From Ancylomarina sp. DW003 (GTDB taxonomy: Bacteria; Bacteroidota; Bacteroidia; Bacteroidales; Marinifilaceae), in contig NZ_JAKJSD010000001.1 of the NCBI RefSeq assembly GCF_029029505.1, positions 62,001-126,000 of the forward strand: a stretch of DNA of 64,000 bases, in the 5' to 3' direction. Position numbers and translations under genes: made by a program. This document shows, in pieces, positions 1 to 63,500 of this stretch. The number at the start of each line of letters is the position of its first letter. The first letter of the stretch is position 1. A model generated the notes under the pieces. That model was not told where the DNA came from. It ran no database searches and saw only the letters and a list, made by a program, of their open reading frames with translations.

Positions 1-2705
1 ACGTTTATACTTTTGGTGATGGTAAGGCCGAAGGTAAAGCAGACATGAAGAATTTGCTTGGAGGTAAGGGTGCTAACCTTGCTGAGATGAACCTAATTGG
101 TGTACCAGTTCCTGCTGGTTTCACTATCACTACTGACGTTTGTACTGATTACAACAAGCTTGGAAAAGATGCTGTTGTAGCAATGATTAAAGAGCAAGTT
201 GAAGCTGCTGTAGCTGATACTGAGAAAGCTATGAACGCAAAATTTGATGCAAAAGAAGGTTTTCCTTTGTTGCTATCAGTTCGTTCTGGTGCTCGTGCTT
301 CTATGCCAGGTATGATGAACACTGTTCTTAACCTTGGTATGAATGACGATACAGTTAAGATTGTAGCTGAGCAGTCAGGTAACGAAAAATTTGCTTACGA
401 TTCATATCGTCGTTTCATCCACATGTACGGTGACGTAGTAATGGGTGTTGAGGCTGAAGAAGGACAGCATAACCCATTCGAGGTTGTTCTTGACAAATTG
501 AAAGAAGCTAAAGGTTACAAATTAGATACTGAACTTACAGTTGAAGACCTTAAAGAATTGGTAGAAGGTTACAAAGTAGTTGTACGTGAGCACGCTGGTG
601 TTGACTTCCCTACTTGTCCTTGGGAGCAACTTTGGGGTTCTGTATGTGCTGTATTCGATTCATGGGATACTGAAAGAGCTATTCTTTACCGTAGAATGGA
701 AGGTATTCCTGACGATTGGGGTACTGCAGTTAACGTACAAGCTATGGTATATGGTAACATGGGTGAGACTTCTGCAACAGGAGTTTGTTTCTCTCGTGAT
801 GCTGCTACTGGTGAAGACCAATTCAATGGTGAGTACTTGATCAACGCACAGGGTGAAGACGTTGTTGCTGGTGTTCGTACGCCACTTGAAATTACTCTTG
901 TAGGTTCTAAGCGTTGGGCTGAGCGTGGTGGTGTTTCTGAAGAAGCTCGTAAGGCTGATTTCCTTTCAATGGAAGAAGCGATGCCTGAGCTTTACAAAGA
1001 ACTAGATACTATCCAGCAGAAGCTTGAAGATCACTATTCTGATATGCAGGATATGGAGTTCACTATCCAACAAGGTAAATTGTGGATGTTGCAAACTCGT
1101 TCTGGTAAGCGTACTGGTGCTGCTATGGTTAAGATGGCTGTAGATATGTTAGAGCAAGGTATGATTGATGAGAATACTGCTATTCTTCGTCAGGAGCCTA
1201 ACAAATTGGATGAGCTACTTCACCCGGTATTCGAAAAATCAGCTCTAGAGGCTGCAAAAGAGCTTTCTAAAGGTCTTCCTGCTTCTCCAGGTGCTGCTAC
1301 TGGTCAAATCGTATTCTCTGCTGAAGCTGCTGAAGAGTGGGCTGCTGCTGGTAAAAAAGTAATTTTGGTACGTAGAGAGACTTCTCCTGAAGACTTGAAA
1401 GGTATGTACGCTGCTGAAGGTATTCTTACTGAGCGTGGTGGTATGACTTCTCACGCTGCTGTAGTTGCTCGTGGTATGGGTAAATGTTGTATTTCTTCTG
1501 CTGCTGGTACTTTAGTTACTGGTTCTTCAATGACTATCAACGGTGTTGAGTATAAAGAAGGTGATTTCATCTCATTGAACGGTACAACTGGTATTGTTTA
1601 CGAAGGAAAAGTTGCTACTATCACTCCTTCATTAGATGGTGATTTCGGTAAGGTAATGGACATGTCAGAGCGTAACACACGTATGTATGTTCGTACAAAT
1701 GCTGATACGCCAGCTGATGCTAAAACAGCTCGTGAATTCGGTGCTAAGGGTATTGGTCTATGTCGTACAGAGCACATGTTCTTCGAAGGTGATAAGATCT
1801 GGAAGATGCGTGAAATGATTCTTGCTGAAGATGTTCAAGGACGTAAAGAAGCTTTAGCTAAATTACTTCCTGTTCAGAGAGAAGACTTCTCTGGAATTCT
1901 TGAAGCTATGGACGGTTTTGGTGTAACTATTCGTCTACTGGATCCACCATTGCACGAGTTTACTCCTAACGATGCTGAGTCTCAAAAAGAAATGGCTGAA
2001 AAATTAGGTGTTTCTGTAGAAGAAGTAGCTAAAAAAGTTGAGTCTCTTCACGAGTTCAACCCAATGTTAGGTCATAGAGGTTGTCGTCTAGGTAACACTT
2101 ACCCAGAGATTACTGAAATGCAAGCTCGCGCTATTCTTGAAGCTGCTTGTGATCTTAAAGCTAAAGGAAAAGATCCTAAGCCAGAGATCATGGTTCCATT
2201 GATCGGTACGATTAAGGAATTCAAGATGCAGGAAGAGATTATCAGAGAGATTGCTGCTGCAGTATTCGCTGAAAAAGGTATCGAAGTTGATTTCTTAGTA
2301 GGTACAATGATCGAGATTCCTCGTGCTGCATTGACTGCTGATCAAATCGCCGAGCATGCTGAATTCTTCTCATTCGGAACAAATGACTTAACTCAAATGG
2401 GATTCGGTTATTCTCGTGATGATGCTGGTAAATTCTTACCAATTTACATCGAGAAAGGTATCCTTAAGAATGATCCATTCCAGGTTCTTGATCAGGAAGG
2501 TATCGGACAATTAGTTCGTATGGGTTGTGAAAAAGGACGTTCAACACGTAAAGATATCAAATTAGGTATCTGTGGTGAGCACGGTGGTGAGCCATCATCA
2601 GTTGAGTTCTGTAACTCAGTTGGTATGGAGTACGTTTCATGTTCTCCTTTCCGTGTGCCAATCGCACGTTTAGCTGCTGCTCAAGCTAACTTGAAGCAAA
2701 ACTAA
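1..2705 (+). CDS. ppdK: Pyruvate, phosphate dikinase (5' end cut by window)
   Basis: Interconverts pyruvate, ATP and phosphate with PEP, AMP and pyrophosphate in the cytosol, for glycolysis or gluconeogenesis. The reading frame is open from base 3, and the residues before the first in-window ATG (base 45) read VYTFGDGKAEGKAD, which is the normal start region of this enzyme. The true start therefore lies just left of the window and only a few residues are missing. An N-terminal nucleotide-binding region is followed by the phosphohistidine domain, with the catalytic His in GGMTSHAAVVARG near residue 470 (numbered from base 45), and by the PEP-binding TIM barrel with the CGEHGGEP motif near residue 842. 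Codon use is strongly biased to GGT, GCT and CGT, as expected of a highly expressed gene. A strong terminator follows 26 bases after the stop. Confidence 0.97.
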   Translation, partial: VYTFGDGKAEGKADMKNLLGGKGANLAEMNLIGVPVPAGFTITTDVCTDYNKLGKDAVVAMIKEQVEAAVADTEKAMNAKFDAKEGFPLLLSVRSGARASMPGMMNTVLNLGMNDDTVKIVAEQSGNEKFAYDSYRRFIHMYGDVVMGVEAEEGQHNPFEVVLDKLKEAKGYKLDTELTVEDLKELVEGYKVVVREHAGVDFPTCPWEQLWGSVCAVFDSWDTERAILYRRMEGIPDDWGTAVNVQAMVYGNMGETSATGVCFSRDAATGEDQFNGEYLINAQGEDVVAGVRTPLEITLVGSKRWAERGGVSEEARKADFLSMEEAMPELYKELDTIQQKLEDHYSDMQDMEFTIQQGKLWMLQTRSGKRTGAAMVKMAVDMLEQGMIDENTAILRQEPNKLDELLHPVFEKSALEAAKELSKGLPASPGAATGQIVFSAEAAEEWAAAGKKVILVRRETSPEDLKGMYAAEGILTERGGMTSHAAVVARGMGKCCISSAAGTLVTGSSMTINGVEYKEGDFISLNGTTGIVYEGKVATITPSLDGDFGKVMDMSERNTRMYVRTNADTPADAKTAREFGAKGIGLCRTEHMFFEGDKIWKMREMILAEDVQGRKEALAKLLPVQREDFSGILEAMDGFGVTIRLLDPPLHEFTPNDAESQKEMAEKLGVSVEEVAKKVESLHEFNPMLGHRGCRLGNTYPEITEMQARAILEAACDLKAKGKDPKPEIMVPLIGTIKEFKMQEEIIREIAAAVFAEKGIEVDFLVGTMIEIPRAALTADQIAEHAEFFSFGTNDLTQMGFGYSRDDAGKFLPIYIEKGILKNDPFQVLDQEGIGQLVRMGCEKGRSTRKDIKLGICGEHGGEPSSVEFCNSVGMEYVSCSPFRVPIARLAAAQANLKQN

Positions 2706-2730
2706 GAGAATATTATTCTCAATATATAGA

Positions 2731-2758
2731 AAGGCTGTCCCTCGGGGCAGCCTTTTGT
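2731..2758 (+). terminator. Rho-independent terminator of ppdK
   Basis: An 11-base arm, AAGGCTGTCCC, pairs with GGGGCAGCCTT (one G-T wobble) around a very short loop and is followed by a T-rich run. It sits directly after the ppdK stop. Confidence 0.85.
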
Positions 2759-2868
2759 GTTTCTGAAATGTTAAAAATGTCAATTGAAATTAAATCTTCT
2801 TCAAAACGGTGAACTTTTTTTATTTCTTTATGCTTCGTTAAACAAATAATATACTCATAAAAAAGAAT

Positions 2869-3417
2869 ATGAATTGGAATTTAAAATTCAGAAATTGGCA
2901 TAGAGATTTCTCTTATTTCTATGCTGCCTTATTAATCGCTTTTTCTATTTCGGGCATTGCTCTTAACCATCGTCATTCATGGGATCCTCGTGATTATGTG
3001 TATCAAACTACGGATATAAAAATTGATATCCCTGAAGATAGAGAAACAATAAATGATGAATTTTTCGAAAATTGGTTAAAAGAAAATAATATAGATCTGG
3101 AATTAAGGGGCACAGCATGGCGTAGAGGAGGCTATAATTTGTACTTTGGGAATGCTTATGCCTTTATTAATCCATTTACCGGAGAAGGTCAAATAGAGCG
3201 ATTTCGAGTTAGACCAATTTTAGGACAAATGGTCGATTTACACAAATCATCAAGTGATGTTTGGATATGGTACTCAGATATCTTTGCAATATGCGTTTTA
3301 TTAATTTGCATTACAGGATTAATTATTGCCAAAGGAAAGCATGGTTTTAAAAAACGAGGATGGAAATTAGCTGCAATTGGTATTTTAATTCCATCAATAA
3401 TGTGGTTCTTTCTATAA
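2869..3417 (+). CDS. PepSY-associated transmembrane protein
   Basis: A 182-residue inner-membrane protein. A first hydrophobic helix at residues 14-33 is preceded by the basic, aromatic stretch RNWHRDFSYFYA. An extracytoplasmic segment of about 100 residues follows, then two C-terminal helices (about 132-151 and 162-182). The start WHRDFSY, the helix pattern and the later LVDLHKSS-like segment (QMVDLHKSSSDVWIW) resemble the short PepSY-associated TM proteins of Bacteroidota, which are often linked to siderophore or metal uptake. No such partner is adjacent here, so the substrate is unknown. It is a single-gene unit with its own start about 110 bases after the ppdK terminator. The family assignment rests on motif resemblance only. 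Confidence 0.7.
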   Translation: MNWNLKFRNWHRDFSYFYAALLIAFSISGIALNHRHSWDPRDYVYQTTDIKIDIPEDRETINDEFFENWLKENNIDLELRGTAWRRGGYNLYFGNAYAFINPFTGEGQIERFRVRPILGQMVDLHKSSSDVWIWYSDIFAICVLLICITGLIIAKGKHGFKKRGWKLAAIGILIPSIMWFFL

Positions 3418-3702
3418 GTGAAATCTACGCCAATACAAAAGTCGCTCCCCAATGAGATAACATTTCATATTTTATAAGCTTCCTAAATTCAACAGGCCTC
3501 CTCTTTTATAAAAAAAACAAATTCTTTTTAAGGATAGTTTATCAGGTATTTAAACACATTTATGTTTTTAAAGGAATAACATAAGCAAAACTAATGTTCT
3601 AATAAATTTATAAAATTTAAGATAAAAATGTATTTTTATAGCTGATCAACGGAATCAAACGTTCTCATCACAAGTAGAAATTAAACTTAAAATATTACAA
3701 TT

Positions 3703-37256: not shown

Positions 37257-40148
37257 ATGGCAACCGAAAAGTTTGTTTCCCGTCACATTGGACCTCGCAA
37301 TGGCGATATTAAAACAATGTTGGAAACTGTTGGCGCATCATCTTTAGATGCCCTAATTGAAGAAACAATCCCTTCTGATATTCGTTTAACTCAGCCTTTA
37401 GATCTTCCTGAAGCTTTAACTGAGAATGAATATTTAGCGAAAATTAAAGGTATTGCTGCTAAAAACAAATTATTCAGAACCTTTATTGGTCAAGGATATT
37501 ATGACACAATTACCCCTCCTGTTATCCTTCGAAACGTACTCGAAAATCCAGGATGGTATACGCCATATACACCATACCAAGCTGAAGTTTCTCAAGGTAG
37601 ACTAGAAGCACTTTTGAACTTTCAAACAGTTGTTTTAGATCTAACTAAAATGGAATTAGCTAACAGCTCACTTCTTGATGAAGCAACTGCTGTGGGTGAA
37701 ACCATGTATATGATGCATAGTTTACGTTCAAGAGCAAAGAAAAAGGCTAAGGCCAATACACTTTTTGTTGACGAAAACATTTTTGCTCAAACACTAGATG
37801 TACTTGTGACTCGTGCTCAGCCACTAGGTATTGAGCTTGTTGTTGGAGATTATAAAACATTCGAATTTACTGATGCAGTATTCGGATCTATCATCCAATA
37901 CCCTGCTGCTAATGGTAGTGTTGAAGACTACACAGAGTTCGTAGAGAAGGCACACGGAGCTGAAGCTTTAGTTGCTGTTGCAGCTGATCTTATGAGTTTA
38001 GCGTTACTTACTGCTCCTGGCGAGTGGGGTGCTGATATTGTTGTCGGTTCGTCTCAACGTTTTGGTGTTCCAATGGGATACGGTGGACCACACGCAGCTT
38101 TCTTAGCTTGTCGTGAAGCTTATAAGCGTAACGTTCCCGGACGTATCATTGGTGTAACCAAAGATGCTCAAGGTAACCAGGCAATCCGTATGGCTCTTCA
38201 AACTCGTGAGCAGCATATCAAACGTGAAAAAGCGACTTCAAACATCTGTACAGCTCAGGCCTTATTAGCTACAATGGCAGGTTTTTATGCGACTTATCAC
38301 GGACAAAAAGGGATTAAGCGTATTGCGACACATATTCATTCAGCAGCTGGTTTCCTTTCAGAAGGATTAAAAGCATTAGGGTACACTCAGAATATCAAAA
38401 ACTATTTCGATACACTTGAGATTGTATTACCTGCTGGTGTTTCAATGGAAGTTATTCGTACTGCAGCTCTTGAGAAAGAGATGAACTTCCGTTATATCAA
38501 CGATACAACTGTAGGTATTTCTACCGATGAGAAAATTAGTGATGCAGAATTGGCTGCCATCCTAAATATTTTCGCAAATGCAGCTAACAAAGCCGAAGTT
38601 GTTGAAACAGCAATGGAAGAAAAGTTATATTTCGATGAGAAATTAGCTCGTAAAAGCGAATACCTAACATTAGATGTATTCAATCGTTATCATTCAGAAA
38701 CTGCAATGATGCGTTACATCAAAAACCTTGAGAAAAAAGATATCGGGCTAAACACTTCGATGATTTCTTTAGGTTCTTGTACTATGAAATTGAATGCTGC
38801 TGCAGAAATGTTTCCTATTAGCTGGCCTGAATTTGGTGGACTTCACCCATTCATCCCAACTAATCAAGCTGACGGTTATACTCAAATCATAACTGAACTT
38901 GAGCAGTGGTTATCTACAATTACGGGCTTTGCCGGATGTACACTACAACCAAATTCCGGTGCTGCTGGTGAGTACACAGGTTTATTAGTTATTCGTGAAT
39001 ACCAAAAATCTCGTGGCGAAGGTCACAGAAATGTTGTATTGATTCCTGCATCTGCACACGGAACTAACCCAGCTACAGTAACAATGGCTGGAATGAAAGT
39101 CGTGGTTGTTAAGTGTGATGAAAATGGTAACGTAGATTCAGAAGACTTTAAAGCTAAAGTTGAGAAGCACAAAGAAGATTTATGTGCCTACATGATCACA
39201 TACCCTTCTACTCACGGTGTATTTGAAACTGGCATCAAAGAAATGATGAACTTGATTCACGAGAATGGTGGACAGGTTTATATGGATGGTGCTAATATGA
39301 ATGCTCAAGTTGGATTAACAAACCCAGGTGCTATTGGCGCTGACGTTTGTCACTTGAATCTACATAAAACATTTGCCATTCCTCACGGTGGTGGTGGTCC
39401 TGGAGTTGGTCCTATTGGTGTTGCTGAACACTTGGTTCAATTCTTACCTTCACACAAAGTTGTTGAGACAGGTGGTAAAAATGGAATCACGGCAGTAGCT
39501 GCTGCTCCTTTCGGATCGGCTAGCGTATTACCTATTACTTACGGTTATATCGCAATGTTAGGTACTGCTGGTTTAGAGGAAGTAACCAAGATGGCTATCT
39601 TAAATGCCAACTACCTTGCTTCTTCGTTCGAAAAACTTGGTTTCAAGATTCTTTACAAAGGAGATAATGGTCGTGTAGGTCACGAGATGATTTTCGACTG
39701 TAGAGAGTTTAATAAAACTGTTGGTATTACTGATGGTGATATTGCGAAGCGTTTAATGGACTACGGCTTCCATGCACCGACTCTTTCTTTCCCTGTTCAC
39801 GGAACACTTATGGTAGAGCCTACTGAAAGTGAGCCACTAGAAGAACTAGATCGTTTTGTTGAAGCACTTGCTAAGATTAACGAAGAGATGAAGGAAATTG
39901 AAGATGGTGTTGCCGATGCTCAAGACAACGTTCTTAAGCATGCTCCACATACGCATATGGTATTAACTGCCGATGAGTGGAACCATTCATACTCTCGTAA
40001 AAAAGCAGCTTATCCATTAGAGTGGGTTGCAGACAACAAATTCTGGCCATCAGTATCTCGTGTTGACGATGCGCATGGAGACAGAAACCTGATGTGTACT
40101 TGTGCACCTCTTGAAAATTATATCGAAGAGCATTGTGAAGTAGAATAA
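37257..40148 (+). CDS. gcvP: Glycine dehydrogenase (aminomethyl-transferring), P protein
   Basis: The PLP-dependent decarboxylase of the glycine cleavage system, which transfers the aminomethyl group to the H protein. 963 residues, the fused alpha-beta form. N-terminal FVSRHIGPRNGD (residue 5), GQGYYDTITPPVILRNVLENPGWYTPYTPYQ (begins near 79), the second-half start NTSMISLGSCTMKLNAAAEM, and the PLP-Lys site CHLNLHKTFAIPHGGGGPG near 704. Codon bias is strong, as in other highly expressed genes here. No gcvH or gcvT is adjacent. It ends in an unusually long hairpin. Confidence 0.97.
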   Translation: MATEKFVSRHIGPRNGDIKTMLETVGASSLDALIEETIPSDIRLTQPLDLPEALTENEYLAKIKGIAAKNKLFRTFIGQGYYDTITPPVILRNVLENPGWYTPYTPYQAEVSQGRLEALLNFQTVVLDLTKMELANSSLLDEATAVGETMYMMHSLRSRAKKKAKANTLFVDENIFAQTLDVLVTRAQPLGIELVVGDYKTFEFTDAVFGSIIQYPAANGSVEDYTEFVEKAHGAEALVAVAADLMSLALLTAPGEWGADIVVGSSQRFGVPMGYGGPHAAFLACREAYKRNVPGRIIGVTKDAQGNQAIRMALQTREQHIKREKATSNICTAQALLATMAGFYATYHGQKGIKRIATHIHSAAGFLSEGLKALGYTQNIKNYFDTLEIVLPAGVSMEVIRTAALEKEMNFRYINDTTVGISTDEKISDAELAAILNIFANAANKAEVVETAMEEKLYFDEKLARKSEYLTLDVFNRYHSETAMMRYIKNLEKKDIGLNTSMISLGSCTMKLNAAAEMFPISWPEFGGLHPFIPTNQADGYTQIITELEQWLSTITGFAGCTLQPNSGAAGEYTGLLVIREYQKSRGEGHRNVVLIPASAHGTNPATVTMAGMKVVVVKCDENGNVDSEDFKAKVEKHKEDLCAYMITYPSTHGVFETGIKEMMNLIHENGGQVYMDGANMNAQVGLTNPGAIGADVCHLNLHKTFAIPHGGGGPGVGPIGVAEHLVQFLPSHKVVETGGKNGITAVAAAPFGSASVLPITYGYIAMLGTAGLEEVTKMAILNANYLASSFEKLGFKILYKGDNGRVGHEMIFDCREFNKTVGITDGDIAKRLMDYGFHAPTLSFPVHGTLMVEPTESEPLEELDRFVEALAKINEEMKEIEDGVADAQDNVLKHAPHTHMVLTADEWNHSYSRKKAAYPLEWVADNKFWPSVSRVDDAHGDRNLMCTCAPLENYIEEHCEVE

Positions 40149-40171
40149 GTTCTATACACAGTTTACGATAC

Positions 40172-40214
40172 AAACCAAATAAGAATGCTCATAATGAGCA
40201 TTCTTATTTGGTTT
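40172..40214. terminator. Very long hairpin after gcvP
   Basis: A perfect stem of about 20 bp (arms 40172-40191 and 40195-40214) around a three-base loop, 23 bases after the gcvP stop. The arms are AT-rich at the base (AAACCAAATAAG) and end in GCTCA at the tip. It works as a terminator in either direction and is longer than any other in the window. Confidence 0.85.
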
Positions 40215-40274
40215 AATTAATTCCCACTGGAGTAACATCTTCATAATTTCATCACGTATTGATATTTTTTTCTC

Positions 40275-40953
40275 TCTCTTTTTTATGCCCCAGGAATAAG
40301 CAATAGTGATATTAATTAAACCCGATAGCTTTACAACTTTGAATTATCTACAAGCACGATATCACGTATTACAAGTAAAATTGCTAATGGCATTGTCTTT
40401 GAGCTAAGAGAAAATTCTAAGATTATTAATCAAACCATCTACATTGTCGCAGATCTTCGAAGGGATGGTAAAAAAGAAAGCCTTTGAACTATGGCTGGTT
40501 AAGAACAAATCTTCAGCCTACTGGATAAGTATTTTAGTCGACATGAAAGCTCATGATCTGCAGGATTTGTTGATCACATCTAAATGGCTTCACCGAAACC
40601 ATCAGAAATGTATTTCCACAGACCACTACCCAGATTTGTATGGTTCATCAGATTCAAAATATTCTTACACAATTAAGAGCTGCCGAGATAACTGGGAAGG
40701 ACTAATTGCATTTGCTAAATTTCCTTTAGAGATTAGATAAATCATTTACACCATCAATTTGATTGAGAATCTAAATGGAAAAATCAGAAAATACATCAAA
40801 AATAAGCTATCTTTTCCTACGGATGATACAGTAATGAAATCAGTTTATTGGACAACAAAAGAAGCAACAAAGAAATAGACAATGCCAATCAAAAACTGAG
40901 AAACAATACTTAATCAGTTTTTAACTATATTTAAACAAAAGGTCGTACTATAA
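40275..40953 (+). pseudogene. Decayed IS256-family transposase
   Basis: A remnant of a Mutator-type (IS256) transposase of about 400 residues, readable only by switching frames. In order: LFYAPGISNSDIN, LYNFELSTSTISRITSKI, then GIVFELRENSKIINQ after the loss of about 20 residues. A one-base shift near 40484 leads into YWISILVDMKAHDLQDLLIT, another shift gives NGFTETIRNVFPQTTTQICM, and after a deletion of roughly 65 residues comes KSCRDNWEGL. The rest is one frame, with three nonsense codons where family members have Lys or Trp: TAA at 40738 (after PLEIR), TAG after EATKK and TGA before ETILNQF. It ends at the family's normal C-terminus (TAA 40951). Non-functional. The ORF at 40444-40740 is one fragment of it. 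Confidence 0.88.
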
Positions 40954-41367
40954 GCCTACCTCTTGAAATTTTTACTCACACACTTGGCAGGGGGAGTTCA
41001 ATAAACCTTTGAAGAGGCAAATCTCTCCCACATTAGGAAGATAAGCCTTATGAAAACCTAAAGTTATCAAACTCTCCTCTTCTAACCCCGCAGCAAGCTG
41101 CAAAGAATTCTTTTAGATTAAAAACTCAGATATTCACAAAAATTTGACAAGATTTATTATACATCTCTTAAAAGTTATCACTATTCATTTTACTATAGGG
41201 TCATTGTCGTCTGTTTTTTTGACTTAGCTCTTTATTATTATACTATGCAGTGTAGACCTTTTGCTATAAACCAACTTTTTAAATCTACAATACTCGACTT
41301 ACAACAGCTATCAACAATCTTGCAGACAGACACGTAAGCATCCCTATTGGTTTTTATCAGTTTTTGT
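40954..41367. other. Non-coding stretch between IS256 remnant and radical SAM gene
   Basis: 414 bases without a coding ORF. Near 40975-40995 the bases CACACACTTGGCAGGGGGA could be what is left of the right terminal repeat of the IS256 element; no matching left end was found. A small palindrome GCAGCAAGCTGC lies at 41090-41101 within CCCCGCAGCAAGCTGCAAAG. The remainder is featureless AT-rich sequence to the stop of the radical SAM gene. Confidence 0.4.
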
Positions 41368-42711
41368 TTACACTTTACATGGAACACCATACAAATTATC
41401 TTCTGCTATGAATGCTTTTGCTCGACAAGTTTTTAAAACACATGTTTTATAATCTGGGCATTCAATACATTCCTTTAATTGATGATATTTTATTCCTCCT
41501 CGAAATGGATTTTCCTCCTTTGGTTTCCTCCAAATATCCAAAACAGAACTATCAAAAACATTTCCAATCTTAAAAAAATTAGATTTAGAAGAGACCGCAC
41601 ATGGAAAAGCATCACCAATTTCATTAATAAATAACGTTGACGTGAGACCAGAACACGACACACAATCCGTAGATCTATCAAGCCTTTCTTCACCAGAAGA
41701 ATCATTAAAGATTAAATTGATTTTTATGTCTTTTTCGTACTTTTTTAAAAGTTGTTGAGTTTGATTTATATCCTTGTCTTTTTCTTTACTGTGCAAATAG
41801 CTATTTTCTTTACTTCGACCGATGTTCTGTAAAACAATGATGCTAGCAGCATCCACCTCCAACTCTTTACATAATTGGACAAATCCTTCGACTTCGTGTT
41901 TGTTTATATCAGTCAAGGTAAAACATAGATTCAGGCTAATTTTTCCTTTGACAGTATTTAAAATTTTGAATAGTTTCTTAAAATGTCCACTTCCTCTAAT
42001 TTTGTCATGAGTATTTGATGAAACTCCATCTAGGGAAATCGTTGTTGATATATTAGGATATGTTAAGTATTCTATTATATCTTCATCGATAAGAGTCCCA
42101 TTGGTAAGCAAAGTTGTACGAATCCTTTTAGATGTAAGATACGATAACAGTTCTTTAATCCCTGGATATACAAGAGGCTCTCCGCCTGATATATTCAAAT
42201 TGGGTGTTTTCAATTTTTCTAATTCATCAATTAATGATTTCCACTTCTTCACCTCAAGTCGTTTATTCTGTAAATTTTCCGGTGAACTTTCAATATAGCA
42301 ATGAGGACATTTTAGATTACATGCAGTTGTAGGGTGAATTTCAACTAAAGTCGGTGTCTTACTGATTTTTATTGGTAATTCAAATTGGATATTTGCAATA
42401 TCAGTAAAAATCCTTGGACTGTCATTTTTAGATAGAAAATTAAAATACTGAGGATTACTGAAAATTCGCTTTAACTCTCCTTTCGGGAATTCTCTATTCT
42501 CAGACCTAATAAACTCTTCTAATTCACCTAAACTAATCTTGTTGAATTCAAAGAAATTTAGTATCCGGAATAATGATTCGCTTAAATTTATTATTTCACT
42601 TTTTTGAATATTATACAATACATATGATTCTCTGTGAGTATCATTTCCATTGTCATTACGTAGGATATAATGAGATGATAATGTGTATGGAGTGTCTAGA
42701 TCTAACTTCAT
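41368..42711 (-). CDS. Radical SAM/SPASM peptide maturase
   Basis: A 447-residue enzyme expected to modify the adjacent precursor peptide. Residues 1-115 form an N-terminal recognition-like region (SESLFRILNFFEFNKISLGELEEF). The [4Fe-4S]/SAM motif CNLKCPHC is at about 131-138, followed by LNISGGEPLVYPG and LLTNGTLI, TTISLDGVSSNTHDKIRG, all radical SAM core blocks. The last 90 residues are a SPASM domain binding two auxiliary clusters: TDCVSCSGL, NEIGDAFPCAV, IGNVFDSSVLDIW and CIECPDYKTCVLKTCRA, with a final Cys near the end. The layout fits the GG-Bacteroidales type of RiPP maturase. A terminator-like hairpin and the Cys-containing precursor lie just upstream. The reaction type (thioether or other crosslink) cannot be told from sequence. 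Confidence 0.9.
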   Translation of the reverse strand: MKLDLDTPYTLSSHYILRNDNGNDTHRESYVLYNIQKSEIINLSESLFRILNFFEFNKISLGELEEFIRSENREFPKGELKRIFSNPQYFNFLSKNDSPRIFTDIANIQFELPIKISKTPTLVEIHPTTACNLKCPHCYIESSPENLQNKRLEVKKWKSLIDELEKLKTPNLNISGGEPLVYPGIKELLSYLTSKRIRTTLLTNGTLIDEDIIEYLTYPNISTTISLDGVSSNTHDKIRGSGHFKKLFKILNTVKGKISLNLCFTLTDINKHEVEGFVQLCKELEVDAASIIVLQNIGRSKENSYLHSKEKDKDINQTQQLLKKYEKDIKINLIFNDSSGEERLDRSTDCVSCSGLTSTLFINEIGDAFPCAVSSKSNFFKIGNVFDSSVLDIWRKPKEENPFRGGIKYHQLKECIECPDYKTCVLKTCRAKAFIAEDNLYGVPCKV

Positions 42712-42742
42712 GATGGTTTAATTATTAAAATAAAGTACTTTA

Positions 42743-42779
42743 CTAAAAAAAGGAGTATGCTATGACTAACATACTCCTT
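42743..42779 (-). terminator. Attenuator between RiPP precursor and maturase
   Basis: On the minus strand AAGGAGTATG (42779-42770) pairs perfectly with CATACTCCTT (42759-42750) and is followed by a T-run. It sits 8 bases after the precursor stop and about 30 before the maturase start, so partial termination would give much more precursor than enzyme mRNA. Confidence 0.8.
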
Positions 42780-42786
42780 AATCATG

Positions 42787-42954
42787 CTATTCTTTCTTAT
42801 CTTCAGGAAAAGGCCAAGCTGATTGACAACAATTAGCTATACCTTCACATTTTGCATCAATCTCAATCTTATTCGACGAAATATTCTTTCCCCCTTTAAG
42901 GTTTTTCAATTGTTCTTTTGTTAATGGATTTGTAATATTAATTTGCTTTTTCAT
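42787..42954 (-). CDS. RiPP precursor peptide with GG leader and CEGIANCC core
   Basis: A 55-residue peptide from the ATG at 42954. The leader MKKQINITNPLTKEQLKNLK ends in Gly-Gly, the hallmark of Bacteroidota GG-leader natural-product precursors; TKEQLKNL matches the usual S/TxEExxNLxGG recognition segment. The core after the GG, of about 33 residues, carries three Cys in DAKCEGIANCCQSAW and ends PFPEDKKE. A longer frame starting with TTG at 43023 adds unrelated residues and was not used. The maturase gene follows on the same strand after an attenuator. Predicted fate: Cys- and aromatic-containing core modified by the radical SAM enzyme, then cut at GG and exported. No protease/ABC exporter is in the window. 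Confidence 0.83.
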   Translation of the reverse strand: MKKQINITNPLTKEQLKNLKGGKNISSNKIEIDAKCEGIANCCQSAWPFPEDKKE

Positions 42955-43225
42955 GATATTCTTTTTAGTGTTTAAAAGGTTTAACATCCCTTCTTTCACA
43001 ATTGCAAAATTCACCTCTTTCAAGCAACGTTGTACACTGTAATAGGTAATTTTAGTTACTTCAGCCGCCTCCAGTAGAGGACGGATTTAATTCATTATCC
43101 GGGACGGCAACTTTCCTAAATTATTCTTTCCTAAGAAAAAGATTGACAAATAAAATTTTCCTATTAAATACATATAAATTGAATATTAAAATTTTAGATT
43201 GTTTTTAGTAGAGTAACCCAAATTA

Positions 43226-43357
43226 TTACACATATAACCTCACCTCTTCTCCATCAATAATAACTATAACATAATCTCTTCCTTCTCCACCTTTCACTAG
43301 AAGTAATTCTTTTCGACTCAGTACCTCAATTGCCTTACATTTCTCTCTCGTTTTCAT
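43226..43357 (-). CDS. Second GG-leader peptide (43 residues)
   Basis: ATG at 43357 to TAA at 43226 on the minus strand. The leader MKTREKCKAIEVLSRKELLL ends in VKGG, and LSRKELLLVKGG closely parallels the LTKEQLKNLKGG of the nearby precursor and the general Bacteroidota GG-leader pattern. The predicted core, EGRDYVIVIIDGEEVRLYV, is short, rich in Val, Ile, acidic and aromatic residues and has no Cys. It may be a second substrate of the radical SAM enzyme (a Tyr- or Asp-based product would not need Cys), a peptide pheromone, or a decoy. It precedes the first precursor by 271 bases and follows a good promoter. Confidence 0.62.
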   Translation of the reverse strand: MKTREKCKAIEVLSRKELLLVKGGEGRDYVIVIIDGEEVRLYV

Positions 43358-43759
43358 GATTTTTACCTTTTATGAAATTGAATTATTCATTATTAAATTC
43401 TCTTTCTAAAACTAAAATATGGGCTCTTAAAAAACGATTAGCATCCTAAGTTCCTAGGATTAAAAACTTAATCAAATAACGGATGGTTTCTAATCAAAAA
43501 CATGCAAAACAATTACTGTCAAACAAAAATACTATACGAAAAAGCAGAGCACAAAAAACACAAACTCAATATTAATTGGACATAGCTGATTTTAATACTT
43601 TTCTAATTACAATATTAGATTTCAAACACAATTAGATTAGAAGAACCAATCTATTTTGATTAGGAAAAGATTCATTGTTTTTTGACAAAAACATAATTTA
43701 TAATTATTCTAATGGGAGTAAGTTTTATTTTCCTTTGAAAAGAAACATACCTTTATCTT
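43358..43759. other. Divergent intergenic region between RiPP locus and histidine kinase
   Basis: 402 bases, very AT-rich. It contains the minus-strand promoter at 43524-43554 described separately. An 87-codon plus-strand frame (43675-43938) overlaps the kinase start and has no coding character. No repeat or RNA gene seen. Confidence 0.5.
43524..43554 (-). promoter_or_regulatory. Promoter of the GG-peptide/radical SAM locus
   Basis: On the minus strand TTG (43552-43554), 20 bases, TATTTTTG (43524-43531) fit the Bacteroidota promoter consensus. The leader to the 43-residue peptide start would be about 160 bases. Confidence 0.5.
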
Positions 43760-45142
43760 ATGAGAAACAAATTACTCAATCGGCTCAGCATAATAGCAGT
43801 CTTGGTTCTCGCCATACTTATTGTATCGCAGGGATTGTGGCTATGGCAGCAATTGGAGCAAGAAAAACAGGCGTTTACATCGAAACTAGAAAATTCTTTG
43901 CAGAGCGTAATAAACTTTCATGCTTTACAAGGCTATAGGACACCTAATCCAGCAAAACCAGATGTGGCTATTTTTTCAATGGAGAAAGTAACAAATAATA
44001 AAGTAAGCAGAGATACCTCAGCTGCATTAGGAAGATTTGATATTAGTACAAAAAAATACATTCCTGGTTTCGCACTAGGAAAATTGATAGAAGCCTCATT
44101 TACAGATAAAAGTTTATTGAAAGATAAATTCAAACTAAAAACTGTTGATTCATTATTTATCAACAACTTTCCTGATTATACAAAAATACAGGCCTATCGC
44201 TTGCAGCTGTTTAAAAATAGAAAACTCATTGATAGTTTATCGTGCAAAATATCAAACATAAAAAAAACAACTAATTCTCCTTCAATTATACATTTACAAG
44301 TACCTCTGGGGACAAAAAACATCTATACTTTTATAGCTGATTTTCAAATGGAAATCTTACCTTTTTTACGGCAAATGGTATTTTCCATAGGCATATCAGC
44401 ATTGGCCATTATTTTAGTCGCCTTTTTTATGCTTTGGCTACTTTCGGCATTACAAAGACAGATAGCACAATTGTTATGGCGCGAACAAGCTGTAAGCGGA
44501 ATAGTACATGACCTTAAATCTCCCCTATCCTACGTTTATACTTTCTTAGATTATTTGGCAAGTAAAGAACAGCAGCCCATTATGCAGGAGCGCCTTGCAA
44601 GTGCAAGTACTAATATTTCCAAATTAACTGATAAGATGGAAGTTTTATTGACATTATTCCGTTCAAAAAAGAAAAAAATTACCATGGAGCCTGCGCCTTA
44701 CAATTTGGCACAAAAGTGCAGAGAACTACTATCGGAATTGGAACTTATCTATCAAGAGAAAAAGCCCAAATACAAGCTATCAATTCCTGATGATTTAGAA
44801 ATCAAGGTAGATGTTCTTTATTTTGAAGCTGCCTTACGAAATTTACTGGATAACGCTTTTAAGTATTCTAACACACCTGCAAAACTAGCAGTTACTACAA
44901 GCCAAAAACAAAAAGAATTATACATTTGCATTGCCGATTCAGGTAAAGGTATTCCTCAAAAAGAATTAAAGAAAATCTTTCAGGAATTTTACCGTACTGA
45001 CGACAACAGAAAGGGACATGGCATCGGCTTGGCTTTTAGTCAAAAAATAATAAAAGCTCATAAAGGACGTATCAATCTACAGAGTGAGATCGGAAAAGGA
45101 AGTAGTTTTTGTATCATTTTACCTGCCCAAATAATAGTGTAA
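43760..45142 (+). CDS. Membrane sensor histidine kinase
   Basis: A 460-residue two-helix kinase. TM1 (about 9-30) and TM2 (about 206-230) enclose a periplasmic domain of about 175 residues with no recognised family, so the signal is unknown. The dimerisation domain has VSGIVHDLKSPLSYVYTFL, with the phospho-His near residue 250. The HATPase domain has FEAALRNLLDNAFKYSN, IADSGKGIP and GHGIGLAFSQKIIKAHKG. The H-box DLKSPL differs slightly from the common ELRTPL. It is followed after 17 bases by its OmpR-type regulator, and reads away from the GG-peptide locus. Confidence 0.93.
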   Translation: MRNKLLNRLSIIAVLVLAILIVSQGLWLWQQLEQEKQAFTSKLENSLQSVINFHALQGYRTPNPAKPDVAIFSMEKVTNNKVSRDTSAALGRFDISTKKYIPGFALGKLIEASFTDKSLLKDKFKLKTVDSLFINNFPDYTKIQAYRLQLFKNRKLIDSLSCKISNIKKTTNSPSIIHLQVPLGTKNIYTFIADFQMEILPFLRQMVFSIGISALAIILVAFFMLWLLSALQRQIAQLLWREQAVSGIVHDLKSPLSYVYTFLDYLASKEQQPIMQERLASASTNISKLTDKMEVLLTLFRSKKKKITMEPAPYNLAQKCRELLSELELIYQEKKPKYKLSIPDDLEIKVDVLYFEAALRNLLDNAFKYSNTPAKLAVTTSQKQKELYICIADSGKGIPQKELKKIFQEFYRTDDNRKGHGIGLAFSQKIIKAHKGRINLQSEIGKGSSFCIILPAQIIV

Positions 45143-45159
45143 CTATAAAGAAAGTGAGA

Positions 45160-45852
<693 letters not shown>

Positions 45853-45974
45853 TTAATGATAGCTATAGAATAATTAGTAATGAGATAATAAGTCCAAAAG
45901 GATATTTTAACTTGATTATTTAATCGTATCCAAATATAATTGCTAATTAATAATAACTGGTTGATGCAAGCTTA

Positions 45975-60542: not shown

Positions 60543-63500
60543 TTATCTAACGAGCACCATATGCCCCTTTTCAGTCGCTTTCCCATTCAAGATTAGAATC
60601 CAAACGTAAACCCCTGTCGGACATCTTTCACCCCTGTATGTTCCATCCCATCCTCCTGCATATCCTGCCTCTTTGGTTCTGTGCATTAGTTCTCCCCAAC
60701 GGTTATAAATATACAATTCAAAGCTTTCTTCAATATTGATCTTCTTTAGATAAAAACGATCATTTTCATTTCCAGCTTCAGGCGTAAAGGCGTTAGGTGA
60801 TTCTATTCCGATAGGTTTTACAACAACTATGGCAGAATCTTTTGCCACACAACCAATTTCATCTTCAACTATTAAATGATAAGTATCCGGTTCAGAAACT
60901 TCTAAATCAGGAGTAAGATCTCCCGTACTCCACTCACAGGTATATGGCGCAAAATCTTCATTTAAATCAGGCCTAAGAGTCGCCGATTCTCCTTCGAAGA
61001 TTAGAGTATCTCTTAAATTAGGAACTGGCGTTGGGTTCATTTTTATTTTCTGAGTTTCCACACAACCAAATTCGTTACTTACGCTCAATTGATATTCCCC
61101 TGGTTGATTTATTATTCTTTCCCAAGCGGTATTATAACCATCCTTCCAAACTGCATTCTCCATTTTGCGGGTATCAATCTTTAAAGATTCACCTTGACAT
61201 AAAAATTTCGATTCTCCAATCTCAGGATTAGCTCTAACATCAACTTCTACTGACGATGTCGCCACGCAACCATACATATCGTTTACATTGATTGTGAAAT
61301 TATGAATTCCCGCTGACAAATTGCTCAATTGAAGATCTCTAATTGATGATTTATTTAAGGTTTCTTTATCAGAGGTCCAATTAATTTCAGAGATCTCACC
61401 AACAATATCAGTTGCTAAAACTAAAGTTTTACACTGACCAATAATGGTATCATTTATCGTTGTAATAACCGGAAGGGGTGCTACATTTACATTCACAATA
61501 TCAGTACCAACGCAACCGTGGCTATCTACAGCAAAAGCTACATACCTTTGTGTTTCTCCAGATGTGAATAATGGCGTTTTCGATTTAGGGTCATCTAAAT
61601 ATCGACTAGGGGACCATTTTATATTGTCAATCTCTGTTTCAGCCCATAATTGCTTACTCTTACATGCTCCTACTGTGAGATCTTCTATCACTTTCACTAC
61701 TGGTAAAGAATCAACCTGCATCATCTTTTCTTCGGTCGTATTGGAACAACCATTTTCGTCTGTATATGAATAACGCACTGCATATTCTCCCTTACCTTTG
61801 TCTGGATCAAATGATCTTTCTCTAATTCCATTGACCCAATAAATACCACCTTCCGGAAAACCACCTTTTAATGCAAACTCAGGTTCGCACACACCATGAG
61901 ATTCCAATTCAGATAATCTTACATCTGGCAGAGGATGAAGTTTTACCAATGAATCAATTTGTGCAAAACAACCTGTTTCTTCATCAACAATTCGAATATT
62001 AATATTTCCATCTTCCAATTCTCCCCACGTTATCTTGGTTTTTGCACCTATATTCTCAGTTGTAAACTCTCCACCTTCAACCTGCCACAAGTAATTAATT
62101 TCTGGCTGATCAGGTGTTGTATAAGTTACTCTATCTTCTAATACACAGAGTTTCATTCGTCCATATATTTGAGCATTTGGAAGTGCATTAACATCTAATT
62201 TTTTAGAATCTGAATATCGCTTTGAAGTACATTTATCTGAAATTTCACAAGTGTAATATCCTCTATCTTTTAGGCTTGTTTTAACAATCTGATAATTTGT
62301 ACTATTAGCTCCTTCAATAGCCTCTCCATTAAATTGCCATTGATATTCCACGTCTCTTCCTTTCGCTTCTACAACAAAATCAACACCTTCACCCTGACAA
62401 ACCTCCAAGTCACCACTCTCACTTAAAATTTTCAACCCAGGAATCACCTTCAAAATCATTTCAGGGCTTATAAATTCCTTACTACAAGCTGAATTTACAG
62501 CACAAGTATATGTTCCTGCATCTATTTGTTTTACATTCCTAAGAGTAATTGATGAGCTATTTTCACCTCCTATATCGACTCCATCTTTTCGCCACTGATA
62601 GCTTATTTTATCACCCCCATAATTGACTCTAAAATGTGTTTCGTCGGTGTTCTCACAAATTTCTACACTTTCACTATGACTAATATAGTAAGGTAACTTC
62701 TGTATTTCAAGATTAGCTTCACTACTCACATCGCCGCACTTGCCCGAAATATCAAGGCGATAGTCACCTGCTTGATCCATCTTCAAATCAATCAAATTCA
62801 AGACAGGTTCATCAGAGATACTAGTTCCCTTATATTGCCAGTCATACTTTAAACTCGCCCCTTCAACATCTAACGACCAAAACAAGTTCTCTTTCTCACA
62901 GAGTATTTGATCCCTTAGATTTGAATTTAATACAGTTTGCTTGTGAACTATCAAATCAACAGTTTCACTCAACTTTGCTCCTTCTCCATTAATCTCGCAA
63001 TGGTATTTTCCAGCGTCGGTATAATCTAGTTCTGAAATAAAATAAGTTAGCTCATGATGATTTAAATTAATATCATCTTTGAACCAATCAATTTTATAAA
63101 CCTCTCCTTTTACAGATATATCCAAACTTAACGGTTCTCCATAACATTTTTCAATGCTAGATAATTCGTTCAATCCTTTCACAATCTTTAGTGGATCTTT
63201 TACAATCAAATATCCGGAAGTAAACCTTCTTCCACACACACCTGAGATATAACAAGAATATTCACCTCCATCATCTAAAGTCAGATTATTCAATTTCAAA
63301 CTAGAACTCGTTTCTGTCAATAATTTATCTACTCCATCTTTATTGGTATGATGCCATTCGTAACTTAAATTACTACCTGTTACATCTAAACTAAACTCAT
63401 AATCACTTTCTACATACACCACCTCTGCTTTAAGAGATGATTGAAGAATAGTATTAGGGTAAACAATCACTTGTGACTTTTCAACTTGTTCATCGCCACA

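Follow-up and report, generated by a model that had tools for sequence, protein, structure and literature searches.

In streptococci, the ComC-ComDE and BlpC-BlpHR systems combine a peptide made with a Gly-Gly (GG) leader, a C39-peptidase ATP-binding cassette (ABC) exporter, and a histidine kinase with its response regulator, and a variable bacteriocin cargo stands under the one regulator. The regulator is of the LytTR type and the kinase is a polytopic HPK10 kinase. Here we describe a locus of Ancylomarina sp. DW003 (Bacteroidota, Marinifilaceae) in which a GG-leader peptide gene, called GG-A below, lies next to a kinase-regulator pair and in front of a second GG-leader peptide, GG-B, and a radical SAM/SPASM enzyme. 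The window, that is, the whole stretch of DNA analysed, spans 64,000 nucleotides (positions 62,001 to 126,000 of contig NZ_JAKJSD010000001.1), and coordinates without a locus name refer to it. An original prediction made from the letters alone had described positions 41368-43357 as a locus for a ribosomally synthesized and post-translationally modified peptide (RiPP), consisting of the enzyme and GG-B.

The nearest working analogy to this locus would be streptococcal Com/Blp, with signalling as a proposal for the present genes. As in those systems, a GG-leader peptide gene adjoins a kinase-regulator pair, in all 11 loci with a close kinase and not in a twelfth genome, G015, whose kinase is distant; C39 matches (PF03412) occur in all 11 genomes, in four of the 11 loci within the examined stretch; and repeats fit for a regulator, whose binding is proposed from sequence, occupy the shared promoter region in all 11. 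The present regulator, however, is of the OmpR type (Trans_reg_C) and not LytTR, the kinase shows no sign of the polytopic HPK10 type, and the hosts are Bacteroidota.

RiPP clusters of Bacteroidales in which radical SAM maturases, GG-motif precursors and C39 exporters are associated have been reported (Fernandez-Cantos et al. 2023, PMC10352776). The radical SAM/GG-leader clusters with peptidase-containing ABC transporters share all three components with the present loci, and one published cluster, BGC5, lacks an exporter but encodes a histidine kinase with a regulator. In the parts of that paper considered here, neither a separate conserved GG peptide paired with a kinase nor operators common to different RiPP classes are described, and 'Labilibaculum' and 'Marinifil-' are absent from its main text. 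Among the best-ranked papers of the open-access literature, a set with most subscription papers outside it, titles and abstract openings contained no description of a GG-peptide/kinase signal pair in Bacteroidota.

Results and Discussion

GG-A, the kinase and the regulator are linked

Three genes of the window form the unit that recurs in other genomes:

43226..43357, minus strand: GG-A, GG-leader peptide of 43 residues and proposed signal, with the core EGRDYVIVIIDGEEVRLYV
43760..45142, plus strand: histidine kinase, 460 residues (HATPase_c E 1.3e-23, HisKA below cut-off)
45160..45852, plus strand: response regulator of the OmpR/RprY type (Response_reg E 7.4e-16, Trans_reg_C E 6.4e-13), its start taken as the internal ATG at 45160

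The two-component pair had been noted in the original prediction as a neighbour of the RiPP locus. It is present, but it belongs to a conserved unit rather than to the mere surroundings, and the predicted range, which ends exactly at the start codon of GG-A, left GG-A unmentioned and was to that extent incomplete.

Genomes and loci are cited below by number where they have to be told apart (G000 is the window genome). Close kinase orthologues were found in 10 other genomes of the family sample (53-76% identity, E 8.2e-152 or better). A GG-A profile gave its best matches, at E 8.5e-20 or better, in exactly the 11 of 56 family genomes that hold a close kinase orthologue, and no strong match in the other 45. 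The remaining rows of this search were second copies in the G003 and G034 loci (1.5e-16 and 1.5e-12) and five further, weak rows at E 0.001 or worse. In all 11 loci GG-A is adjacent to the kinase gene and divergent from it. The order and phylum samples (393 and 395 genomes, at most 18 candidates scored per genome) yielded ten weak matches outside G000, with E values from 0.001 to 0.007, seven of which fell within profile positions 1-31, mainly the leader.

The GG-A core is 19 residues long and has no Cys; a core such as EDRDYYTVIIDGKEVRIYV could form two beta strands around a DGK turn. Between the window and G027 (Labilibaculum euxinus A4) the GG-A core is 74% and the leader 54% identical, the reverse of GG-B, whose leader is 100% identical and whose core agrees in 13 of 34 columns. 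Inspection of the kinase by eye revealed hydrophobic segments near the N-terminus and at residues 207-230 with a sensor region between them. In an alignment of the 11 close orthologues, with G015 left out, mean pairwise identity was lower in the sensor region (residues 33-205) than in the kinase region (57.4 vs 68.6%).

Two loci depart from the common arrangement. On the G037 contig, which stops beyond the kinase gene, no regulator was seen. The G025 regulator falls into two frames, and the GG-A leader of this genome is broken as well; the changes affect both partners of the proposed circuit, though either could be a sequencing error. The regulator of the window carries a run of ten Gln in the linker between its receiver and DNA-binding domains (45520-45560), a feature that the homologue from Labilibaculum lacks.

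Repeats between GG-A and the kinase gene

Aligning the 11 regions between GG-A and the kinase gene made repeated GATTAG/CTAATC blocks visible. In the window they form two groups:

43436..43495: proposed operator, GG-A side (GATTAG at 43436, dyad GATTAAAAACTTAATC at 43458-43473, CTAATC at 43490)
43613..43663: proposed operator, kinase side (TATTAG at 43613, GATTAG at 43635 and 43658, spacing 22 and 23 base pairs)

In these related regions, from which the motif itself had been read, GATTAG/CTAATC occurs 38 times against about 2.1 expected from the rest of the loci: four times in the window, seven in G003, six in G029, four each in G028 and G034, three each in G033, G027 and G025, twice each in G040 and G038, and not at all in G037. 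The variant GATGAG/CTCATC is present in 11 copies (G037 five, G038 four, G025 two) and in none of the other eight regions. Same-strand hexamer pairs, one mismatch allowed, were spaced by 22 base pairs in 16 cases and by 23 in 14, versus 0.65 and 0.11 in control windows. Counting only pairs with at least one exact site, we found 26 in 4,623 base pairs inside the regions versus 15 in 241,888 outside; shuffled regions gave a mean of 0.058 pairs and a maximum of one in 500 rounds. Every one of the 11 regions has at least one pair spaced 22-23 base pairs.

Three loci, L076, L078 and L079, account for 11 of the 15 pairs outside; there the pairs accompany a degenerate second GG-A and a kinase fragment of 15-16 residues (E 0.002-0.009). 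We therefore rejected the idea that the outside pairs mark an independent regulon, and the pairs in these three loci are taken as probable relics. The decayed copies with their repeat clusters and short kinase remnants were located at L076 12253-12640, L078 15133-15520 and L079 10487-10872, and the one in L076 precedes genes for a DUF4377 protein and an astacin-type protease.

Across the whole window CTAATC is not over-represented (29 copies against 41.5 expected), and four of the 29 lie inside the 402-base-pair region between GG-A and the kinase gene. A dyad variant with five rather than six free positions occurred at 8 places in the window genome versus 17 for the backward control, which is no evidence for it.

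The neighbouring cassette is exchanged

Judged from the 11 loci, the fixed unit is GG-A with the kinase-regulator pair, while the cassette beside it changes. A SPASM enzyme was found within the examined stretch of seven loci. The 447-residue type is that of the window and G027; a 426-442-residue type, with about 24-32% identity to the window enzyme over part of the length only, is present in G003 (two enzymes), G028, G029 (two), G034 and G040. NCBIfam was applied to three of the seven other cassette SPASM enzymes, and blastp assigned each of the remaining four to one of these three. In place of a SPASM enzyme the G038 cassette encodes YcaO (E 2.9e-55), along with one nitroreductase-type and one ABC protein, and no maturase was visible in the examined stretch of G033, G025 or G037 (a 9.6-kb contig). 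The unit also stands in at least four neighbourhoods, namely between gcvP and rpsO, at miaA, in an etf/cstA region and beside an integrase-like frame, with gene names read from translations.

A proposed signalling circuit and the points against it

We incline slightly to the view that the GG-A core, once exported, signals to the kinase encoded next to it, and that an interchangeable RiPP cassette is switched on by the regulator through the repeats. Gene content, linkage, conservation, the repeats, the exchange of cassettes and the one joint interruption in G025 speak for such a circuit; its export, sensing, DNA binding, operon structure and GG-B chemistry are predicted. GG-A would be exported and trimmed at Gly-Gly by a C39-peptidase ABC exporter (in trans in the window strain), and its 19-residue core would be sensed outside the inner membrane by the adjoining kinase, which would phosphorylate the OmpR-type regulator. 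The regulator would bind the GATTAG/CTAATC repeats and raise transcription in both directions, towards GG-A, GG-B and the maturase as well as towards the kinase and regulator genes; the SPASM enzyme would modify the diverged GG-B core. For the broader idea of a portable Bacteroidota pheromone switch, with different RiPP classes (two SPASM types and YcaO) placed behind the same signal peptide and operator at several sites, we regard the case for and against as evenly balanced.

If this is true, a GG-leader peptide pheromone circuit exists in Bacteroidota with a regulator family unlike that of streptococcal Com/Blp. The 19-residue peptide would be a handle for switching on silent RiPP clusters, and GG-A together with the kinase would be a search key for peptide clusters of whatever chemistry.

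Several observations weigh against these proposals. Pheromones often diversify, and the GG-A core diversifies little; among ten intact GG-A sequences (10 of 12 alignment rows, without the broken G025 sequence and the additional one of G003) it is barely more conserved than the leader, at 63.0 vs 57.9%. The set of 11 genomes common to GG-A and the kinase may partly reflect descent of one linked module, and a weaker kinase homologue (35%, residues 124-458) occurs in G015, where GG-A is missing. No C39 exporter was found in the examined stretch of seven of the 11 loci, the window included. As for the repeats, the motif was defined on the very sequences used for the counts; G038 and G025 have kept GATTAG (two and three copies) alongside GATGAG, and the motif change is therefore partial. 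The strict dyad GATTAN6TAATC is exact in only three of the 11 regions (window, G003 and G025) and occurs also elsewhere (L009, L080 and L132), and a single dyad in 64 kb is unremarkable, with 0.24 expected and one reached in 22 of 100 shuffles. Structure models of the kinase N-terminus and of the maturase were poor, with mean predicted local distance difference test scores of 42.9 and 38.2.

The same genes could be read without peptide signalling: GG-A would be a secreted effector, such as an unmodified class II-type bacteriocin, and the two-component pair would sense envelope stress or the exported product for control or self-protection. GG-A does resemble the cargo peptides in its GG leader and is the first gene of the cassette, and several GG peptides per cassette are possible, as in G003. 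Its place and length, however, stay constant from one set of cargo peptides to the next, it is retained in loci without a visible maturase, and each of the 11 genomes with a strong match to either GG-A or the one kinase family has both. We consider an effector role unlikely, yet it is the alternative to be taken most seriously.

Export and the island of the window

The proposed circuit needs an exporter for GG-A. A C39 ABC exporter is encoded in cis in G003, G027, G028 and G040, and PF03412 (C39) matches occur somewhere in the genome in all 11 cases. The search elsewhere in the genome that the original prediction had suggested returned four C39 matches for the window strain: a 735-residue frame (L132), a 739-residue frame (L133), a 156-residue protein and one weak match. 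Both long frames belong to other peptide loci. Export in trans by these C39-exporter-like genes is possible in the window strain.

L132 (G000:C4, 2115-8959) is a second radical SAM peptide locus of the window genome. It contains a 443-residue SPASM-like enzyme related to the cassette SPASM enzymes, a 590-residue protein, the C39-bearing 735-residue frame and, at 2115-3431, a 438-residue HlyD-like frame. The other peptide locus, L133, has three near-identical GG-type peptides at 728-1517 (G000:C1, about 565.7-566.5 kb) near the C39-bearing 739-residue frame; their cores start with DNDEDWCIVGQC and end in CYTGA.

The genes of the window lie on an island:

40155..45966: inserted island between gcvP and rpsO (names read from translations), where homology to G001, G002 and G004 is interrupted
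40444..40878, plus strand: probable decayed remnant of a Mutator/IS256-type transposase, from the weak match of a 39-residue frame

The site is empty in three of five same-genus genomes: in G001, G002 and G004 gcvP and rpsO are neighbours, and homology of the window to them ends at 40154-40160 and restarts at 45966-45968. G003, of the same genus, has the kinase-regulator-GG-A unit before rpsO; its exporter cassette is complete, and the gcvP 3' end is present in an additional copy. Comparison with that locus indicates that the window carries G003's unit with a different cassette whose exporter half is missing. Around the G003 island the gcvP 3' end is found in up to three pieces (L075 1219-1327 and 1502-2180; L130 46-762), which suggests repeated insertion or duplication at the site.

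No C39 exporter, HlyD protein or outer-membrane barrel is encoded in the island of the window. The earlier statement that no exporter is seen thus held for the island, but one stands in cis in L. euxinus, and the own genome probably provides one in trans. A decayed IS256 neighbour, likewise claimed earlier, received weak support: the 39-residue frame (40759-40878) matched the last 36 positions of PF00872 (337-372) at E 0.0035, below the cut-off, and the 98-residue frame at 40444-40740 had no match.

The locus of the window might accordingly be a stranded remnant, with the exporter side lost and the remaining genes no longer used. The missing export genes fit this idea, as does the probable transposase remnant, which sits where the exporter genes would be; a tblastx comparison of 40101-41400 with the other loci found no cassette remnant at E 0.01. 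Against it, the enzyme, both peptides, the kinase and the regulator are all open frames, and the genome holds two long C39-bearing frames elsewhere. We judge such a stranding improbable.

The radical SAM/SPASM enzyme and GG-B

The cargo side of the window consists of two genes:

41368..42711, minus strand: radical SAM/SPASM enzyme, presumed maturase of GG-B, 447 residues, intact open reading frame (PF04055 and PF13186)
42787..42954, minus strand: GG-B, GG-leader precursor (cargo) of 55 residues, beginning MKKQINITNPLTKEQLKNLKGG, with the core KNISSNKIEIDAKCEGIANCCQSAWPFPEDKKE

The enzyme is what the original prediction had called it. Both Pfam domains exceed their cut-offs (Radical_SAM E 2.3e-22, 80.4 bits vs 29.5; SPASM E 6.5e-10, 39.6 bits vs 21.5), the CX3CX2C motif is formed by C131, C135 and C138, and further Cys residues stand at 263, 281, 350, 353, 371, 415, 418, 424, 429 and 445. 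The 55-residue peptide lies directly upstream, 75 nucleotides from the enzyme, as had been stated. A 78-residue version of GG-B with a TTG start was rejected, since the ATG at 42954 begins the identical leader, though the upstream frame is open in both species.

The enzyme is rare among the sampled genomes. One of 55 other family genomes, L. euxinus A4, has a homologue at E<=1e-30 (54% identical over 445 aligned residues). With at most four candidates scored per genome, none of 392 other genomes of the order sample had one at E<=1e-35 and none of 394 others of the phylum sample at E<=1e-25. The plasmid collection gave no match at E 1e-30, and a scan of genome contigs with the single enzyme sequence returned no relative; with a two-row alignment it returned six loci, of which only L. 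euxinus was close and the other five had E 3e-11 or weaker. The window genome itself has six more distant homologues, the best at E 1.3e-14.

GG-B has strong matches in two of the 56 family genomes, all others being at E 0.03 or worse. Its leader and that of L. euxinus agree in 22 of 22 residues and in 62 of 66 nucleotides, and the CC pair of the core is retained while the first Cys of the window core is not; CEGIANCC, noted earlier in the core, is not supported as a defining feature, since only its CC is kept, a point that also sets the substrate apart from those of AlbA and SkfB. The pairing of enzyme and GG-B is more than chance, because in L. euxinus, too, a peptide with this 22-residue leader, unchanged, stands before an enzyme of 54% identity. 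Constant leader and variable core are the pattern of a maturase that recognises the leader, and the enzyme probably modifies a small secreted peptide. In L. euxinus the regulator and kinase are followed by the oppositely directed GG-A, GG-B and maturase, then by an outer-membrane barrel protein (PF14905 E 1.1e-53) and a 163-residue protein without a Pfam match. Next in this cassette are a 738-residue C39-peptidase ABC exporter (PF03412 E 8.9e-31), a PDDEXK_3 protein and a short HlyD-like protein (PF13437 E 0.003, under the cut-off).

Assignment to a named family was less clear. NCBIfam gave 80 models with E up to 1 for the enzyme, and the best 25 of these were all under their own cut-offs, among them the named SPASM maturases (WgkB, AlbA, PapB, mycofactocin and others). 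WgkB, AhbD, NirJ1 and the mycofactocin maturase came first, a mixture of peptide families (WgkB, mycofactocin, AlbA) and non-peptide ones (AhbD, NirJ), so that the NCBIfam check suggested earlier returned a mixed answer that counts against the maturase reading. The model of the TIGR04148 maturases was not among the best 25 of 80. The sactipeptide maturases AlbA and SkfB share the radical SAM and SPASM architecture; the AlbA model scored 98.3 bits against a cut-off of 850, and SkfB was the best PDB sequence match (E 7.8e-16), followed by 5v1q 'Radical SAM' (E 2.2e-14), which we take to be a peptide maturase, and more weakly by an anaerobic sulfatase-maturing enzyme and PqqE (each 2.1e-9). For GG-B, the expected match to a GG-leader precursor model failed: TIGR04149 (GG_sam_targ_CFB, Bacteroidota GG-leader substrates of radical SAM enzymes) reached E 0.011 and 15.7 bits, below its cut-off of 25. 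The reading as a peptide maturase with a GG-leader precursor nevertheless stands, because GG-B is conserved beside the one close homologue found (1/1, G027), and peptide maturases outrank the sulfatase-maturing enzyme in the PDB. With GG-B conserved there, the outcome that the original prediction had named as its refutation did not occur. Taken by themselves, the maturase and GG-B would represent a new SPASM subfamily member.

GG-A could itself be a substrate, or a second substrate, of the radical SAM enzyme, as it lies on the same strand upstream of a SPASM enzyme in seven of 11 loci. The other loci have GG-A with YcaO (G038) or without a visible maturase (G033, G037 and G025), the SPASM enzymes beside it are of two very different types, and its core has no Cys to offer; we think this very improbable. 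That the enzyme is of a heme or cofactor type with GG-B as a chance neighbour is hardly credible: AhbD and NirJ are among NCBIfam ranks that all stay below cut-off in the best 25 of 80, and residues 1-118 have no Pfam domain, but the GG-B leader, with its 62 of 66 identical nucleotides, precedes the homologue in another genus. The N-terminus is also where a leader-binding RiPP recognition element would be sought; a PDB sequence search with residues 1-118 gave nothing meaningful.

Other cassette genes

HlyD-like frames of the cassettes have only 172-245 residues, which is short for a periplasmic adaptor:

L017 6896-7480: short HlyD-like frame
L075 2230-2967: short HlyD-like frame
L077 7959-8516: short HlyD-like frame
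L078 12688-13251: short HlyD-like frame
L083 7522-8040: short HlyD-like frame

Their matches were weak: that of L078 to TIGR01843 (E 4.8e-14) is below the cut-off, and PF13437 is just above its cut-off in L075, under it in L017 and without a match in L083.

A protein of 161-163 residues (MSTLKNLISTHLSAEQVE...), of which the one copy examined has no Pfam match, recurs in the cassettes, the YcaO type included:

L017 2821-3312: recurrent protein
L075 6670-7161: recurrent protein
L077 12109-12594: recurrent protein
L078 8719-9210: recurrent protein
L081 14631-15122: recurrent protein
L082 15150-15641: recurrent protein

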